DNA of 52,482 nucleotides from a virus. The stretch's first letter is position 1. Each line of letters begins with the position of its first letter. Of this stretch, positions 34,818-50,349 are shown piece by piece. The stretch lies in the IMG/VR virus record IMGVR_UViG_3300005253_000354, positions 1 through 52,482 of that record. One strand, given 5' to 3'. Made by a program: the position numbers and the translations under genes. The notes beneath the pieces were generated by a model. It was given only the letters and a program-made list of their open reading frames with translations. It made no database searches and was not told where the DNA came from.

Positions 34818-35579
34818 TCAGTTGGCTGGCTTGCAACTCCAGAAGCCGCAGGGGTTGACCAAGTAAAGGCCATTGGGCCGGCGGGTTACGCGGTATTCCC
34901 ATAAAAGCAGGTCTTTGCCGAGCGGGCCGCAAAACACGCGAATGGCCCTGCCGCGATTGGTCTCCCTGTCCGGATAGGCCACCGTTACCGAGGGGCAGTT
35001 ATAGCCGCCCGAATCGATGACCCCGGCCAGAGTCCGTTTTACCCCCGGTGTGAGGTCGATCCCCTGGGGCAGCGCAGCCGCTCGTTCTTGTTTCGCCTTT
35101 TTCGCTGCCTCTTCAGCCTCCATCTCCAAGTTTTCGATGTGCTTGGCTTCTTTCACGCCCCGGGCTTCCCTCACGGGCTTGGCCTCTTCCAGGCGCTCGG
35201 CTTCCGCGAGGCGCGCGGCTTCTTTCAAGCGTTCGGCTTCTTTCAGACGCGCCGCCTCCTTCGCTCGCTTGGCCGCCTCGACACGCCGGGCTTGTTCCAC
35301 GCGCTCGGCTTCCGTGACGCGCGCGGCTTCTTTCACCCGCTGAGCCTCTTCCGCGGCGCCCGTCGAAACCAGGGCGGCGTCGTCAACCGCGGCGACGTCG
35401 GTCTCCGGGCTGCTCGCGGCGTGTAAGAACGCGCCGAAATTAACCATCAGAAGCCCCGCCAGCGCAACGACCGCACCGTCCTTGCGGCTTCTGATTCTGA
35501 ATATGGTGAGTGGCTTGATGACAGAGATGGCGCCGACGAGAAGGACGACAAAGCCGGCCAAAAACAATGCCGTGCCCAT
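34818..35579 (-). CDS. Membrane-anchored coiled-coil protein
   Basis: 253 residues. Two membrane helices (residues 1-23, and 35-55) are followed by a ~100-residue, highly regular coiled coil of ARxxEAxR-type repeats (EAARLKEAERLKEAARLAEA), then a C-terminal folded domain with four Cys (GYNCPSVTVAYPD, RVFCGPLGKD, VNPCGFWSC). It lies downstream of the repressor in the same direction, so it is probably expressed in the lysogen. Candidate for superinfection exclusion or envelope modification; function not proven. Confidence 0.6.
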   Translation of the reverse strand: MGTALFLAGFVVLLVGAISVIKPLTIFRIRSRKDGAVVALAGLLMVNFGAFLHAASSPETDVAAVDDAALVSTGAAEEAQRVKEAARVTEAERVEQARRVEAAKRAKEAARLKEAERLKEAARLAEAERLEEAKPVREARGVKEAKHIENLEMEAEEAAKKAKQERAAALPQGIDLTPGVKRTLAGVIDSGGYNCPSVTVAYPDRETNRGRAIRVFCGPLGKDLLLWEYRVTRRPNGLYLVNPCGFWSCKPAN

Positions 35580-36678: not shown

Positions 36679-37053
36679 GTGATCAGCGCCGAAGAAGTGG
36701 ACGCCAACTATGCCGAGCTCAGCGCTCAGATCGACCGCCTGGAGGAACTTGAGATGCCCGCATGGTCAGGCACAGAAGTCGGAAGTCAGAAGCCGGAAGC
36801 TGTGGCGCCCGCCCCGAGATGTATCGGATGCCGTTACTTTCTCCGTTTTGACGTCGAATTCGATCCTGGGCATTGCCACCGTCACGCGCCGACCGCCGGC
36901 AAGAGGGGTACTGCCCAATGGCCCTCAGTGTGGGGCGAGTATTGGTGCGGGGACTTCGAGGAGGTCTGCGAAGCGTCCACCCTGGCGGCGGCGGATCGTC
37001 GAGCTGCGCCATCGGGCTTCTGGGCGCGGGTCCTGGGGTGGTTCCGAGGGTGA
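36679..37053 (+). CDS. Small Cys/His-rich protein (124 aa)
   Basis: GTG start, AAGGA upstream. After an N-terminal helix, the second half has CIGCRYFLRFD, GHCHRHAPT and EYWCGDF: a Cys-Cys-Cys-His...Cys pattern seen in a small family common in alphaproteobacteria, probably metal binding. Codons near residues 30-40 stem from a CAGAAGT repeat, so the protein carries an inserted low-complexity piece. Confidence 0.6.
   Translation: MISAEEVDANYAELSAQIDRLEELEMPAWSGTEVGSQKPEAVAPAPRCIGCRYFLRFDVEFDPGHCHRHAPTAGKRGTAQWPSVWGEYWCGDFEEVCEASTLAAADRRAAPSGFWARVLGWFRG
36773..36800. repeat. CAGAAGT/CGGAAGT heptamer repeat
   Basis: Four 7-bp units in a row: CAGAAGT, CGGAAGT, CAGAAGC, CGGAAGC. They are inside the coding frame of the Cys/His-rich gene. 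Same type as 13,705-13,732. Confidence 0.75.
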
Positions 37054-37092
37054 GGAGCCGACCGCCGGGCGTTTAGACCGAAAGGACCGATC

Positions 37093-37665
37093 ATGGAGAC
37101 CATCCACTACGAGATCACCGGGACCGCGCCGCTGCTGATGCAGTCGGAGCGCACGGTGAACCCCTTCGACCCGCTGACCAAAGCGATGAAGGTGATTACC
37201 GGCAAGAAAAAGAAGACCGAGGAGGACAAGATGGATCTGGCCCGCCTGGAGTTCGAGGCCGGGCTGTATTTCGACGCCGATCTCGGCCCCTACATCCCCG
37301 GCCTCAACCTGGACGCGATGATCCGCGACGCGGCGAAACTGTCCAAGCTCGGCAAGGCGGTCCAGCGCGGCACCATGGTGGTCGAGGACAAGAACCGGCT
37401 CGAGTACGACGGCCCACGCTCTATCGCCAAGCTGTGGGCGGACGAGCGCTTCGTCGATCTCAGGAGCGCAGTCGTCCAGCGCGCCCGGATAATGCGCTGC
37501 CGGCCGATCTTCCGCGCCTGGCGGGTCGCCTTCACCGTGGCCTTGGACCCGAAGATCCTGGACGCCGCCGAAGTCCGCCGGATCGTCACCGACGCCGGGC
37601 GTTACATCGGCCTGGGCACCTATCGGCCGCGCTTCGGCCGCTTCGAGGTAACCGGCGATGATTAG
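37093..37665 (+). CDS. RAMP/Cas7-like phage protein (inferred fold)
   Basis: 190 residues. It begins with a strand typical of RAMP proteins (IHYEITGTAPLLMQSER), has YIPGLNLDAMIRDAAK (67-82), which resembles the IPGSSLRGAIR segment of Cas7/Csm3-type proteins, and ends with a glycine-rich GLGTYRPRFGRFEV (173-186), which resembles the RAMP G-rich loop. The basic patch KKKKTEED (37-45) lies between. There is no active-site His as in Cas6. I regard an RNA-binding ferredoxin-like fold as likely; the family itself appears in many phages as a hypothetical protein. Its stop codon lies at the border of the pentamer array, and the array would be transcribed with it. Confidence 0.55.
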   Translation: METIHYEITGTAPLLMQSERTVNPFDPLTKAMKVITGKKKKTEEDKMDLARLEFEAGLYFDADLGPYIPGLNLDAMIRDAAKLSKLGKAVQRGTMVVEDKNRLEYDGPRSIAKLWADERFVDLRSAVVQRARIMRCRPIFRAWRVAFTVALDPKILDAAEVRRIVTDAGRYIGLGTYRPRFGRFEVTGDD

Positions 37666-37669
37666 TTGT

Positions 37670-38408
37670 AGCGCGGCTCTGCATAGCACGGCCGGGCTGG
37701 GCCGGGCGAGGCAGGGCAAGGCACGGAGAGTTCGGCGATTTTCACGACGGTGCGGCATGGTGTGGTCCGGCCTGGTTTGGCAAGGCTCGGCCCGGCGCCG
37801 CTCGGCTTGGCACGGCTTGGCACGGCTTGGCACGGAGATTTGAATGATTAGCGAGGTTGTGGCGCTGCTGGGCGCGGCGCGGCTGGGCCGGGCGGGGCAA
37901 GGCTTTGCTGGGTGCGGCATGGCGGGGCGCGGCACGGAGATTTTGACGATTGTCACGAGTTCATCGCGGCGTGGCCGTGCATTGCCCGGCACAGCTTGGC
38001 ATGGCGCGGCTTGGCCTGGCGAGGCACGGAGACTTTGCGGATTTCACGCGGCTCGGCGGGGCAGGGCCAGGCCTGGCCTGGCAGGGCACGGCCTGGCGGG
38101 GCAAGGCACGGAAACTTTGCAGATACCACGCGGCGCCGCTTGGTTTGGCCTTGCTGGGCTCGGAGCGGCTGGGCAAGGCAGGGCGCGGCTTGGCACGGAG
38201 ATTTCAGGAATTTTACGCGGCAGGGCGCGGCGGCGCGTGGCCAGGCCCGGCTCGGCGTGGCAAGCCGCAGCTCGGCTGGGCGCGGCTCGGCCAGGCCCGG
38301 CAAGGCACGGAGACTTTGCGGATTTCACTCGGCGCGGCAAGGCATGGCGGGGCAAGGTCCGGCGGGGCGAGGCGCGGCGGGGCTTGGCAAGGGACGGGGA
38401 TTTGAATC
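37670..38408 (+). repeat. Modular GGCNN pentamer array with eight conserved cores
   Basis: Eight cores beginning GGCACGGAGA (last one GGGACGGGGA) start at 37,720, 37,829, 37,931, 38,023, 38,105, 38,192, 38,304 and 38,391. Cores are 27 nt (first 29) and continue with TTT..GATT..CACGC-like bases. Tracts of 10, 16, 15, 13, 11, 12, 17 and 12 pentamers precede each core; 81 of the 106 pentamers begin with exact GGC, followed by two free bases. Core-to-core distances are 109, 102, 92, 82, 87, 112, 87. The plus strand is strongly G-rich and has almost no stop codons in any frame. No CRISPR-type identical repeats or cas1/cas2 are present. Confidence 0.85.
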
Positions 38409-38945
38409 ATGATCGAGGCTAAACCGATCGAGGTGCATCCGGCCTGGCGCCAAGCGCTGGCCGGGTTCCACGAGCAGGGCTTCGAGGCCGGCGACCTGGT
38501 CGGCTTCGACTGGCTCTACGAAGCGTTCAAGATCACCCGGCCGGGACCGGCGACGCGCTACGAGGACGCCAAGAAGGCCGAGCTCGCCTTCGTCGCCGCG
38601 ATGGAGCCGTTCCGCGGCGCCCTGCTGCGCGAGCACCAGATAGCGCTCGATAACGTGCGCGGCCAAGGTTACCGGATCGTGCCGCCGCCCGAGCAGACCG
38701 AGTGGGCCGAGACGGCGGGGCTGCGCGAGGCCAAGCGCGCGCTCGGCAAGATGGGGCACCGGCTCAGCTTCGTCGACATGCGGCAATTGAACGCCGCCGA
38801 GCGGCGCGCCAACGCCGACGCCTTAACGCGGTACGCCATGCTCGCCGGCCTCACCAAACGCATCGAGAAGGTCCGGCGCGAGCCCGAGGCGGTCCTTGCG
38901 GCCGACGAAGCGGCTCGCGCAATTGGCGGGCCCAATGATGCCTGA
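38409..38945 (+). CDS. Winged-helix-like phage protein downstream of the array
   Basis: 178 residues. The last core of the array supplies its Shine-Dalgarno region (GACGGGG, 9-12 nt before ATG). IALDNVRGQGYRIVPPPEQT resembles the wing of OmpR-type winged helices (VRGVGY), and the flanking parts are helical (FEAGDLVGFDWLYEAFKI; DALTRYAMLAGLTKRIEKVR). I expect a DNA- or RNA-binding regulator. The combination with the RAMP-like gene and the pentamer array suggests a functional unit. Confidence 0.6.
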   Translation: MIEAKPIEVHPAWRQALAGFHEQGFEAGDLVGFDWLYEAFKITRPGPATRYEDAKKAELAFVAAMEPFRGALLREHQIALDNVRGQGYRIVPPPEQTEWAETAGLREAKRALGKMGHRLSFVDMRQLNAAERRANADALTRYAMLAGLTKRIEKVRREPEAVLAADEAARAIGGPNDA

Positions 38946-42202: not shown

Positions 42203-42362
42203 CCCCGAATCCGAGCGGAATTGGCCCGAAGATTTCTCGCACGAGAACGGCAATTACTTCTGCCGTTGCTGTCACTGCGGGAAGGATTTCATCGGCCATA
42301 AGCGCCGGGTGGTCTGCAAGGTATGCTCGACCGGCTCCGTTAAAGACACAGGAGAAAGCTGA
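42195..42362 (+). CDS. Zinc-ribbon micro-protein (55 aa)
   Basis: ATG 42,195 lies in the previous gene (8-bp overlap). NYFCRCCHCGKDFIGHKRRV and VCKVCS form a C-x2-C...C-x2-C zinc ribbon. Its last eight residues, SVKDTGES, come from the repeated boundary segment and are identical with those of the gene at 43,418. Confidence 0.65.
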   Translation: MIDPESERNWPEDFSHENGNYFCRCCHCGKDFIGHKRRVVCKVCSTGSVKDTGES

Positions 42363-42546
42363 TGGAGTGGGCGTGGCCTCAGTGGGTTTACGCAGGTCTT
42401 TTCGTTTTGAACATCGTCCTCTGCGTATCGAAGCATGGCGAGTCCCGCGAACCATACAACGGACCGCTCGCGACCATCTGTGCGGCGGTTTCTATATGGA
42501 TTCTTTATGAAGGCGGCTTTTGGACGCCAGTCCAATGAGGTCCGTT
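42336..42546 (+). repeat. 211-bp duplicated cassette, copy 1
   Basis: Exact copy of 43,553-43,763. It starts with TCCGTTAAAG and ends with TCCGTT, and contains the Shine-Dalgarno and the full gene of a 58-residue membrane protein. Bases outside the segment differ at once on both sides. Confidence 0.95.
42362..42538 (+). CDS. Two-helix membrane micro-protein (58 aa), copy 1
   Basis: The product starts MEWAWPQWVYAGLFVLNIVL and has a second hydrophobic helix (LATICAAVSIWILYEGGFW) after a polar loop (SKHGESREPYNGP). AGGAGAAAG is 6-8 nt upstream of the start. It is identical to the gene at 43,579. Predicted small inner-membrane protein of unknown function. Confidence 0.7.
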   Translation: MEWAWPQWVYAGLFVLNIVLCVSKHGESREPYNGPLATICAAVSIWILYEGGFWTPVQ

Positions 42547-43425: not shown

Positions 43426-43579
43426 TTTAGAAGTCATAGAAAAAGCGGTAGCCGAGACAGTGAATATAGCCGCCGTGGCCGAGCGATGTCTGTCTGAGGA
43501 GACGATCGCTCGCATTGCGATCGACATCTACAAAGCCACGCTAGCGGAAAAGTCCGTTAAAGACACAGGAGAAAGCTGA
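43418..43579 (+). CDS. Small helical protein (53 aa)
   Basis: Product MTDLEVIEKAVAETVNIAAV then ERCLSEETIARIAIDIY and the tail SVKDTGES. The tail comes from the first bases of the 211-bp repeat, so the cassette has replaced the original 3' end of this gene. Confidence 0.55.
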   Translation: MTDLEVIEKAVAETVNIAAVAERCLSEETIARIAIDIYKATLAEKSVKDTGES

Positions 43580-43763
43580 TGGAGTGGGCGTGGCCTCAGT
43601 GGGTTTACGCAGGTCTTTTCGTTTTGAACATCGTCCTCTGCGTATCGAAGCATGGCGAGTCCCGCGAACCATACAACGGACCGCTCGCGACCATCTGTGC
43701 GGCGGTTTCTATATGGATTCTTTATGAAGGCGGCTTTTGGACGCCAGTCCAATGAGGTCCGTT
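43553..43763 (+). repeat. 211-bp duplicated cassette, copy 2
   Basis: Letter-for-letter copy of 42,336-42,546, lying 1,217 bp downstream in the same orientation. Bordered by TCCGTT on both ends. Confidence 0.95.
43579..43755 (+). CDS. Two-helix membrane micro-protein (58 aa), copy 2
   Basis: Identical at DNA and protein level to the gene at 42,362. Its ATG overlaps the preceding stop (TGATG). Two identical copies within 1.2 kb imply very recent duplication or gene conversion. Confidence 0.7.
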   Translation: MEWAWPQWVYAGLFVLNIVLCVSKHGESREPYNGPLATICAAVSIWILYEGGFWTPVQ

Positions 43764-48965: not shown

Positions 48966-49201
48966 GCACAATGTTATCAGAGAGAAGTGGTCGCTGGGGC
49001 CGGATATCGCTCCGGCGGCATGGGGACAACATGAAAGCCCGGTTGCTGATCACTTCGATCCGGGACGCGTCCCGGATGCAGATCATGTCGGTCCCCGTCG
49101 GGTCTTCACCAGCGGATCCTAATCGGGAATTAAGGGCCCACCGCTGCCCAGCGACCGAGGGTCAAACTAAACGCCGATTCGGAAAAGGTCAACCATCGTG
49201 A
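48962..49201 (+). CDS. Hypothetical protein (79 aa), uncertain
   Basis: ATGA overlap with the previous gene and GTGA overlap with the replication gene. The product (MSTMLSERSGRWGRISLRRH; KARLLITSIRDASRMQIM) is basic, without recognisable motif. Coding is supported mainly by its fit between the neighbours. Confidence 0.4.
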   Translation: MSTMLSERSGRWGRISLRRHGDNMKARLLITSIRDASRMQIMSVPVGSSPADPNRELRAHRCPATEGQTKRRFGKGQPS

Positions 49202-50349
49202 GCGTCGGCCAGGTCCACCTCTACGTCCGCGATCGCGACTTCCGCGCGCTCGGCAAGGGCAGCCACGCGCTCAAGCAGGTGCTCGAACGGCTCGCCTGGT
49301 TCGCCGACGAGGACGGGATGTCGGTGTTCCCCAAGATGCAGACCATCGCCGACGCGCTCGGCGTGACCAAGCGCGGCGTGCGATTCCGCATGCGCGCCTT
49401 GGAGGAAAAGGGTTTCGTCACCGTGGTCGAGGAGGCGCGTCAGCACCGCCCGCGCGTCTACCGTATCGACGTCGACAAGATCCTCGGGTTGCCGTTGACG
49501 GAGACCGGGCGCAACCGGCTCGCCCGCGAGACCCTGGCGGCGCCGAAGGACCCTGCGGAGCCAGGGGGGAAATCTACGTCATCCGGCGAATCCAGGGGGG
49601 AAAAGTCTGTCGCCCAGGGGGGAAATCTAGGTTACCCAGGGGGGAAATCTACGTCGCCCCATATAGATGAAGAATCACTTCAAGAATCAAAACAAGAATC
49701 ATCCGCGCGCGAGGCCGGGGGCGCTCACGGCCCTGGGGGGGCCGACGCCCCCCCTGCCTGTGCCGTCTGGCGCGACAACCAGGCCGCGCTCGAGGCGCTC
49801 GCCAGCTGGCCGCTGCTCGAGCGCGCCATCCCCGACCATGACGACGGCGAGGTCCTGACGCTTGCGGTCGAGGCGCCAGTGGTCGGCTTCGCCATATTGG
49901 CCTGGGCGGCGCGCGAGGCCGAGGCGGTCCTGGGGCGCCGCCTGGCGTGCCGAGTGCGGCGCTGGGTGCAGCCGTCCTTGATCCAAAGAGGCATTCAAAA
50001 AGTGGGCGCCACCGACGCCAGCGCGCACCGCCGAGACGGCGAGATCGTGACCTTGCAGGACCCGGCCTGGCGGATGTGGCAGGCCAAGGCGACGGAACTC
50101 GGCGCCCCGGAGATCGGCGCCATCACGGCGCTCTGCCTGCCGGACGACCTGGACCAGACCGGCTTGACGCTGTTCGTCGGTTCGGTGGCGATTGCCAACA
50201 TGCTCGCCGAGGACGGCGGCAAGGCGGTCGCCCGGGTGCTGGGCGTGCCGATCCGGACGCGTTTCCTGTGGTGCATGGATATGGTCCTCGACGCGCGCGC
50301 GGCGGCCGACCGCGGCGAAACGGGCCTGCAAGGAAGGGAGGCGATATGA
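49198..50349 (+). CDS. Replication initiator (O-like) with internal origin
   Basis: 383 residues, GTG start. The N-terminal winged helix (LERLAWFADEDGMSVFPKMQ and IADALGVTKRGVRFRMRALE) is typical of phage replication initiators that bind iterons. The middle is low-complexity because it is encoded by four iterons (peptides such as PGGKSTS), followed by AT-rich DNA. The C-terminal ~180 residues (RRWVQPSLIQRGIQKVG, then DPAWRMWQAKATELGA) may contact helicase or its loader. This is the same layout as the lambda O gene with ori inside. Confidence 0.75.
   Translation: MSVGQVHLYVRDRDFRALGKGSHALKQVLERLAWFADEDGMSVFPKMQTIADALGVTKRGVRFRMRALEEKGFVTVVEEARQHRPRVYRIDVDKILGLPLTETGRNRLARETLAAPKDPAEPGGKSTSSGESRGEKSVAQGGNLGYPGGKSTSPHIDEESLQESKQESSAREAGGAHGPGGADAPPACAVWRDNQAALEALASWPLLERAIPDHDDGEVLTLAVEAPVVGFAILAWAAREAEAVLGRRLACRVRRWVQPSLIQRGIQKVGATDASAHRRDGEIVTLQDPAWRMWQAKATELGAPEIGAITALCLPDDLDQTGLTLFVGSVAIANMLAEDGGKAVARVLGVPIRTRFLWCMDMVLDARAAADRGETGLQGREAI
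49561..49705. other. Iteron replication origin inside the initiator gene
   Basis: Four direct repeats of CCAGGGGGGAAATCTACGTC (49,561-49,580; 49,592-49,611 with AAAAGTCTGTC; 49,614-49,633; 49,636-49,655). Spacings are 31, 22 and 22 bp, so three lie on one face of the helix with two turns. An AT-rich stretch follows (49,660-49,705) with AAGAATCA repeated three times, a probable unwinding element. Matches the lambda ori design. Confidence 0.75.

Follow-up and report, generated by a model that had tools for sequence, protein, structure and literature searches.

Known VIPR systems and the locus analysed here

VIPR was described in April 2026 and proposed as an ancestor of class 1 CRISPR (PMC13142463; bioRxiv 2026.04.26.720920). 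Its guide RNAs, the vrRNAs, consist of 9-16 YNNGG repeats followed by a 3′ tail and are bound by the protein Vipr. The NN dinucleotides are read with one skipped base between them, leading to binding of double-stranded DNA and transcriptional repression, and this NN-directed DNA targeting by Vipr has been demonstrated experimentally (PMC13142463). In nature the system is directed against competing phages, satellites and prophages; the targets reported include satellite genes and lysogeny regulators, and the skipped target base tends towards the codon wobble position (PMC13142463). The Vipr tree contains seven types, with Escherichia phage SUSP1 and a Pseudomonas fulva prophage belonging to type II, with vap1, and in the SUSP1 clade the vrRNA tail holds a conserved pseudoknot (PMC13142463).

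Here we analysed a 52,482-nt stretch of viral DNA (the window) that carries an array of GGCNN pentamers between two genes. We are highly confident that this region is a tailed-phage VIPR locus, made up of vipr, eight vrRNAs and vap1, and that it targets the DNA of rival phages. Judged from its sequence, the locus is a new member of the system, probably type II-like, whose array is long and includes two guides directed at a capsid gene. The anatomical features tested agree with the published format: Vipr, GGY/NN tracts, a 3′ tail and a vap gene. As in SUSP1 and the P. fulva prophage, the system is phage-encoded, homologous Vipr and vap1 are present, the GGY/NN tracts have a similar length and end in a 3′ tail, and the apparent targets, read with a 1-nt skip, lie in other phages. 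In contrast to SUSP1, where one vrRNA lies upstream and three lie downstream of the genes, all eight vrRNAs are placed between vipr and vap1; the scaffold is GGC rather than GGT; and the tail is shorter and unrelated in sequence. Moreover, the decoded guides point to a capsid gene, whereas the published targets are satellite genes and lysogeny regulators.

A Csm3-like protein and an accessory gene flank the array

The gene upstream of the array (37093-37665, plus strand, 190 aa) falls in phrog_4652, a family of unknown function by annotation, and was assigned as vipr by homology and by fold. As a single sequence its product matched PDB 36pp, 'SUSP1 Vipr protein', with an E-value of 1.5e-32 (phmmer), and a profile built from 64 of its relatives matched the same entry with an E-value of 1.4e-48. 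An AlphaFold2 model of the protein had a pLDDT of 97.3 and a pTM of 0.90, and a Foldseek search with this model returned Cmr and Csm subunits (Csm3/Cmr4) at the top (E 4e-6, probability 1.00). In type III CRISPR complexes, Csm3 and Cmr subunits are the RAMPs that form the backbone. On homology and predicted fold, the product of 37093-37665 is Vipr, a Csm3-like RAMP protein.

The likeness to type III systems lies in the fold and, probably, in the formation of a protein filament on a guide RNA. It does not extend to the sequence, which is ~10-15% identical to Csm3/Cmr4, nor to the surroundings, as there are no CRISPR repeats or cas genes by the array; no cas families were detected among the neighbouring genes (Pfam) or in five VIPR-type proteins scanned with PADLOC. 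Furthermore, the guide information is gapped here, while in a type III crRNA it is contiguous. A CRISPR array was accordingly rejected as a candidate: the variation sits in NN pairs set within a scaffold of GGC, and there are no contiguous spacers.

The downstream gene (38409-38945, plus strand, 178 aa) belongs to phrog_5926 (E 6e-26). In phage SUSP1 the gene directly after vipr is also a phrog_5926 member, with 30% identity (E 1e-12) to the product encoded here, and by this homology 38409-38945 is taken as vap1, encoding the Vipr accessory protein.

The array encodes eight putative guide RNAs

The array consists of eight tails and 106 pentamers, and all tract lengths are exact multiples of five. 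The positions and tract lengths given in a preliminary description of this DNA were reproduced to the base. The repeated elements that it had called cores are better understood as the 3′ tails of separate guide RNAs. Read in this way, vrRNA1 (37670-37748, plus strand, as are all the others) has 10 pentamers (37670-37719), a tail starting at 37720 and ending at 37748, and the guide GCNTCNATNACNCGNTGNCGNGANAGNAA. It is followed by vrRNA2 (37749-37855; 16 pentamers at 37749-37828, tail 37829-37855; guide GCNATNGTNCCNCTNTTNAANTCNCCNGCNTCNTTNACNTTNACNTT), vrRNA3 (37856-37957; 15 pentamers at 37856-37930, tail 37931-37957) and vrRNA4 (37958-38049; 13 pentamers at 37958-38022, tail 38023-38049). The second half of the array holds vrRNA5 (38050-38131; 11 pentamers at 38050-38104, all GGC, tail 38105-38131), vrRNA6 (38132-38218; 12 pentamers at 38132-38191, tail 38192-38218; guide GCNTTNTTNCTNTGNTCNGCNTGNAANAGNGCNTT), vrRNA7 (38219-38330; 17 pentamers at 38219-38303, tail 38304-38330) and vrRNA8 (38331-38417; 12 pentamers at 38331-38390, tail 38391-38417), the tail of which extends over the vap1 start codon at 38409.

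A recount confirmed that 81 of the 106 pentamers start with GGC; a further 7 start with GGT, giving 88 with GGY, and 89 start with GG of any kind. Twelve of 12 consecutive in-phase pentamers carried GGC, a count that never rose above 7 when the region was resampled 1000 times under a first-order Markov model. Phase-locked GGC was found nowhere else in the window, and the tracts of the array lie on the plus strand only. We agree with the earlier reading that the array is noncoding, and a coding gene was rejected, as the 5-nt period passes through every frame; three overlapping ORFs look open across the array because this period cycles through all of them. The view of GGC as a constant scaffold and of the two other bases as the diversified part also held. 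Fifteen of the 16 possible dinucleotides are present in the array and TA alone is missing, but rather than varying freely, as had been proposed, the NN letters are read here as a targeting code. In 5261 pooled pentamers from the window and from other loci, TA was depleted (observed/expected 0.68). Such depletion is expected if the NNs mirror codon positions 1 and 2, where TAN specifies Tyr or stop; a general avoidance of TA could be an alternative cause.

The tails are ~27 nt long, and 11 columns are invariant across the eight copies. The second half of the tail has a variant shared by vrRNA2 (37829-37855) and vrRNA8 (38391-38417) and unlike the other copies. Because the vrRNA8 tail overlaps the start of vap1, the vrRNA2 tail may be left over from an earlier end of the array next to a vap1 start, shifted inwards by duplication. 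RNAalifold, a method without pseudoknots, gave no consensus pair for the tails. A search of 37000-38500 for Rfam families and hammerheads returned one sub-threshold chance match only, which sets the array apart from VIPR arrays with hammerhead ribozymes between their vrRNAs. No terminators were found, and promoter-like sites were weak.

Contig DRFF01000144.1, from a metagenome-assembled genome (MAG) labelled Aurantimonas coralicida, matches the window with 99.956% identity over 11.4 kb, and the 739 bases of the array are 100% identical in the two. As this contig was assembled separately, an assembly artefact is an unlikely origin of the array, and the label of the MAG suggests an alphaproteobacterial host for the phage.

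Other repeats occur in the window. A 145-bp stretch is present twice with 100% identity (42336-42480 and 43553-43697), and a 36-bp tandem repeat of 5.5 copies (35145-35341) lies in a minus-strand ORF without known family (34818-35579). A 22-bp tandem repeat, CCAGGGGGGAAAACTAGGTCAC, occurs in three copies (49592-49659) within a replication-initiator-like gene (49198-50349), and these copies look like origin iterons of the kind seen in lambda O.

Guides 2 and 6 point to one capsid gene

The guides were decoded by the published 1-nt skip rule (NNxNNx...). For vrRNA2, a search seeded with 8 NNs returned 38 loci. The full guide matched 14 of 16 NNs in one contig (L182), 13 in L191 and L175, 12 in L200 and L176, and 11 in L193 and L171. 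In all seven contigs the match falls in the same gene, which encodes a prohead protease fused to a capsid protein (PF04586 and PF25209 in L182). The site is antisense to LEKVNEAGEFKSGTIA, and the skipped base is the codon wobble position. With bases taken as independent, the expected count of six extra NN matches among the 38 seed loci is ~2e-6. The two tail-proximal NNs of the guide were mismatched in the best matches, and a perfect target was not found for any guide.

Among the loci fetched before any scan with guide 6, the best match of that guide was in L191, at a distance of 222 nt from the guide-2 site there. A seed scan with guide 6 then listed 121 sites, matching 11 of 12 NNs in 7 cases, 10 of 12 in 41 and 9 of 12 in 71, and the best 40 of these listed sites all encode the motif KALFHADH (once KALFHAEH). 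They belong to the same capsid family, and the site is antisense to KALFHADHGNKA, again with the wobble base skipped. Taken alone, these scan counts overstate the evidence because the motif is highly conserved and is covered by the seed. A cleaner test was provided by nine prophage regions of ~40 kb chosen with guide 2 only. Here, in six of the nine prophages, guide 6 with a 1-nt skip had its best match at -222 or -234 nt relative to the guide-2 site, while skips of 0, 2 and 3 gave nothing at this position in the nine regions. Judging from these matches, vrRNA2 and vrRNA6 appear to target two conserved motifs within a single capsid gene of rival phages.

When 297 order-level genomes were searched with guide 2, 29 matches were found, compared with ~9 for the reversed pattern, the matches being partly the capsid motif. 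The site was not found in the array-bearing MAG and 199 relatives of its family (200 genomes), and no guide had a self-target above chance in the phage's own genome, as represented by the window.

Guides 1, 3, 4, 5, 7 and 8 gave no target above chance. Ten NNs of guide 5 had no exact viral match; an 8-NN seed of guide 7 had 22 matches, none of which extended beyond chance, and a peptide guessed from this guide had no tblastn match. A long exact search with guide 8 found nothing in viral contigs, genome contigs or the 200 genomes. Similarly, an all-against-all target search with the 404 tracts in the fetched loci returned only low-complexity artefacts at the top.

Tracts and vipr genes are linked across phages

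Viral contigs were scanned for nine in-phase GGCs, blind to genes, and at least 120 loci were recovered. A phrog_4652 (Vipr) gene was present in 86 of the 120 listed tract loci and in 0 of 180 control viral loci, the latter having been fetched with guide-seed patterns unrelated to the tract rather than picked at random. In the listed tract loci the median distance from tract to vipr was 17 bp, nearly always on the same strand. The 34 listed loci without a detected Vipr include long, diverse GGCNN arrays (e.g. L075:3096-4288, L064:10563-10838 and L043:10438-10586), and they may reflect contigs that are cut short, Vipr types of greater divergence or a different partner protein. No sibling of the array was found in viral contigs with an exact pattern of tract plus tail.

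The same pairing was observed in Pseudomonas phage LESphi2 and in cluster F mycobacteriophages (Quico, Saal), where phase-locked GGCNN tracts adjoin a phrog_4652 gene on the same strand. The LESphi2 tails differ from those described here and are longer, and in Quico no vap1 was detected. Several cluster F tracts are annotated as protein genes (e.g. FLORINDA_59, BobaPhett gp51; L326:904-1146, L323:875-1039, L324:875-1039 and L327:875-1039), very probably through misannotation of vrRNA.

The preliminary description had proposed that tracts change length only in steps of five bases. This was the case in the window and mostly in relatives. Between Saal and BobaPhett the clearest tract indel separating close relatives is exactly 5 nt, one pentamer, and larger cluster F tract indels are compatible with blocks of five. 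However, cluster F arrays contain regular 4-nt joints (GGCAGGC), unlike the array here, that shift the phase, so steps of five are not a universal rule. For two other pairs of relatives, gapped alignments were ambiguous, with gaps of 20, 20, 10, 2 and 8 in one and 10, 4, 1, 4, 1, 1 and 1 in the other. Between Saal-like and Quico-like tracts most GGC columns are invariant and the NNs are widely different, while the DNA that follows the tract shows hardly any change.

Alternative explanations

It is quite unlikely that this is a decayed, inactive VIPR locus with old guides as relics. Some pentamers are degenerate (e.g. in tracts 1, 4 and 7), tails 2 and 8 are unlike the rest and six guides have no known target, all of which decay would account for; against this, both vipr and vap1 are intact and give good models, every pentamer of tracts 5 and 8 carries a GGY, and guides 2 and 6 still fit a common capsid family.

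Considered first, and demoted once the homology to Vipr had been found, was an RNA platform for a TRAP-like or other ring protein, in which a multimer on GGC would regulate the vipr-vap1 mRNA and the NNs would be mere spacers. The regular alternation of triplet and dinucleotide, the position of the tracts beside the Vipr gene on the same strand and the overlap of the last tail with the vap1 start codon all fit such a platform. Nevertheless, we consider it very improbable: two guides decode to one foreign capsid gene at a consistent spacing, which spacers need not do, and the protein belongs to the Vipr kind, whose NN-directed targeting of DNA has been demonstrated by experiment (PMC13142463).

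A microsatellite or assembly artefact without function has a negligible probability, for although some tract-pattern loci (L030, L084, L124) are true low-complexity repeats, the array recurs identically in a separate assembly, uses nearly all NN types, is linked to vipr and yields decoded targets.

A model for the VIPR locus and its significance

If the VIPR locus operates as the published system does (PMC13142463), the array would be transcribed and then cut or terminated into single vrRNAs. Vipr, a minimal Cas7/Csm3-like protein, would probably assemble into a polymer on each tract, with every GGY held and every NN presented. The suggestion that the array forms a nucleic-acid-binding platform survives in part: a protein partner from a flanking gene is very probable, but the bound form would be RNA and not DNA. 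One subunit per pentamer, as also suggested, is likely to be about right if other RAMPs are a guide. Through its NN pairs, and with a single target base passed over between one pair and the next, each vrRNA would recognise the double-stranded DNA of a competing phage, and binding of the ribonucleoprotein to the rival capsid gene would block transcription and lower expression.

Since only codon positions 1 and 2 would be targeted, synonymous changes would offer no escape and one guide would cover many capsid relatives. That guides are built for protein-conserved motifs, so that a single small array could shut out a broad range of rivals by acting on a late structural gene, with new guides copied from target DNA while the GGC frame is kept, is a conjecture that we rate as unlikely; to our knowledge, no guide-acquisition (adaptation) step has been described so far.

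Having been reached from the raw array alone, the locus gives independent support, from an unrelated phage, for the format of VIPR guides, for their linkage to Vipr and for the 1-nt skip code, and it adds a large eight-guide array and a capsid gene as the apparent target. Public phage genomes hold many tracts, in some cases annotated as hypothetical proteins, that are probably guide RNAs, and a simple rule is enough to read their targets.
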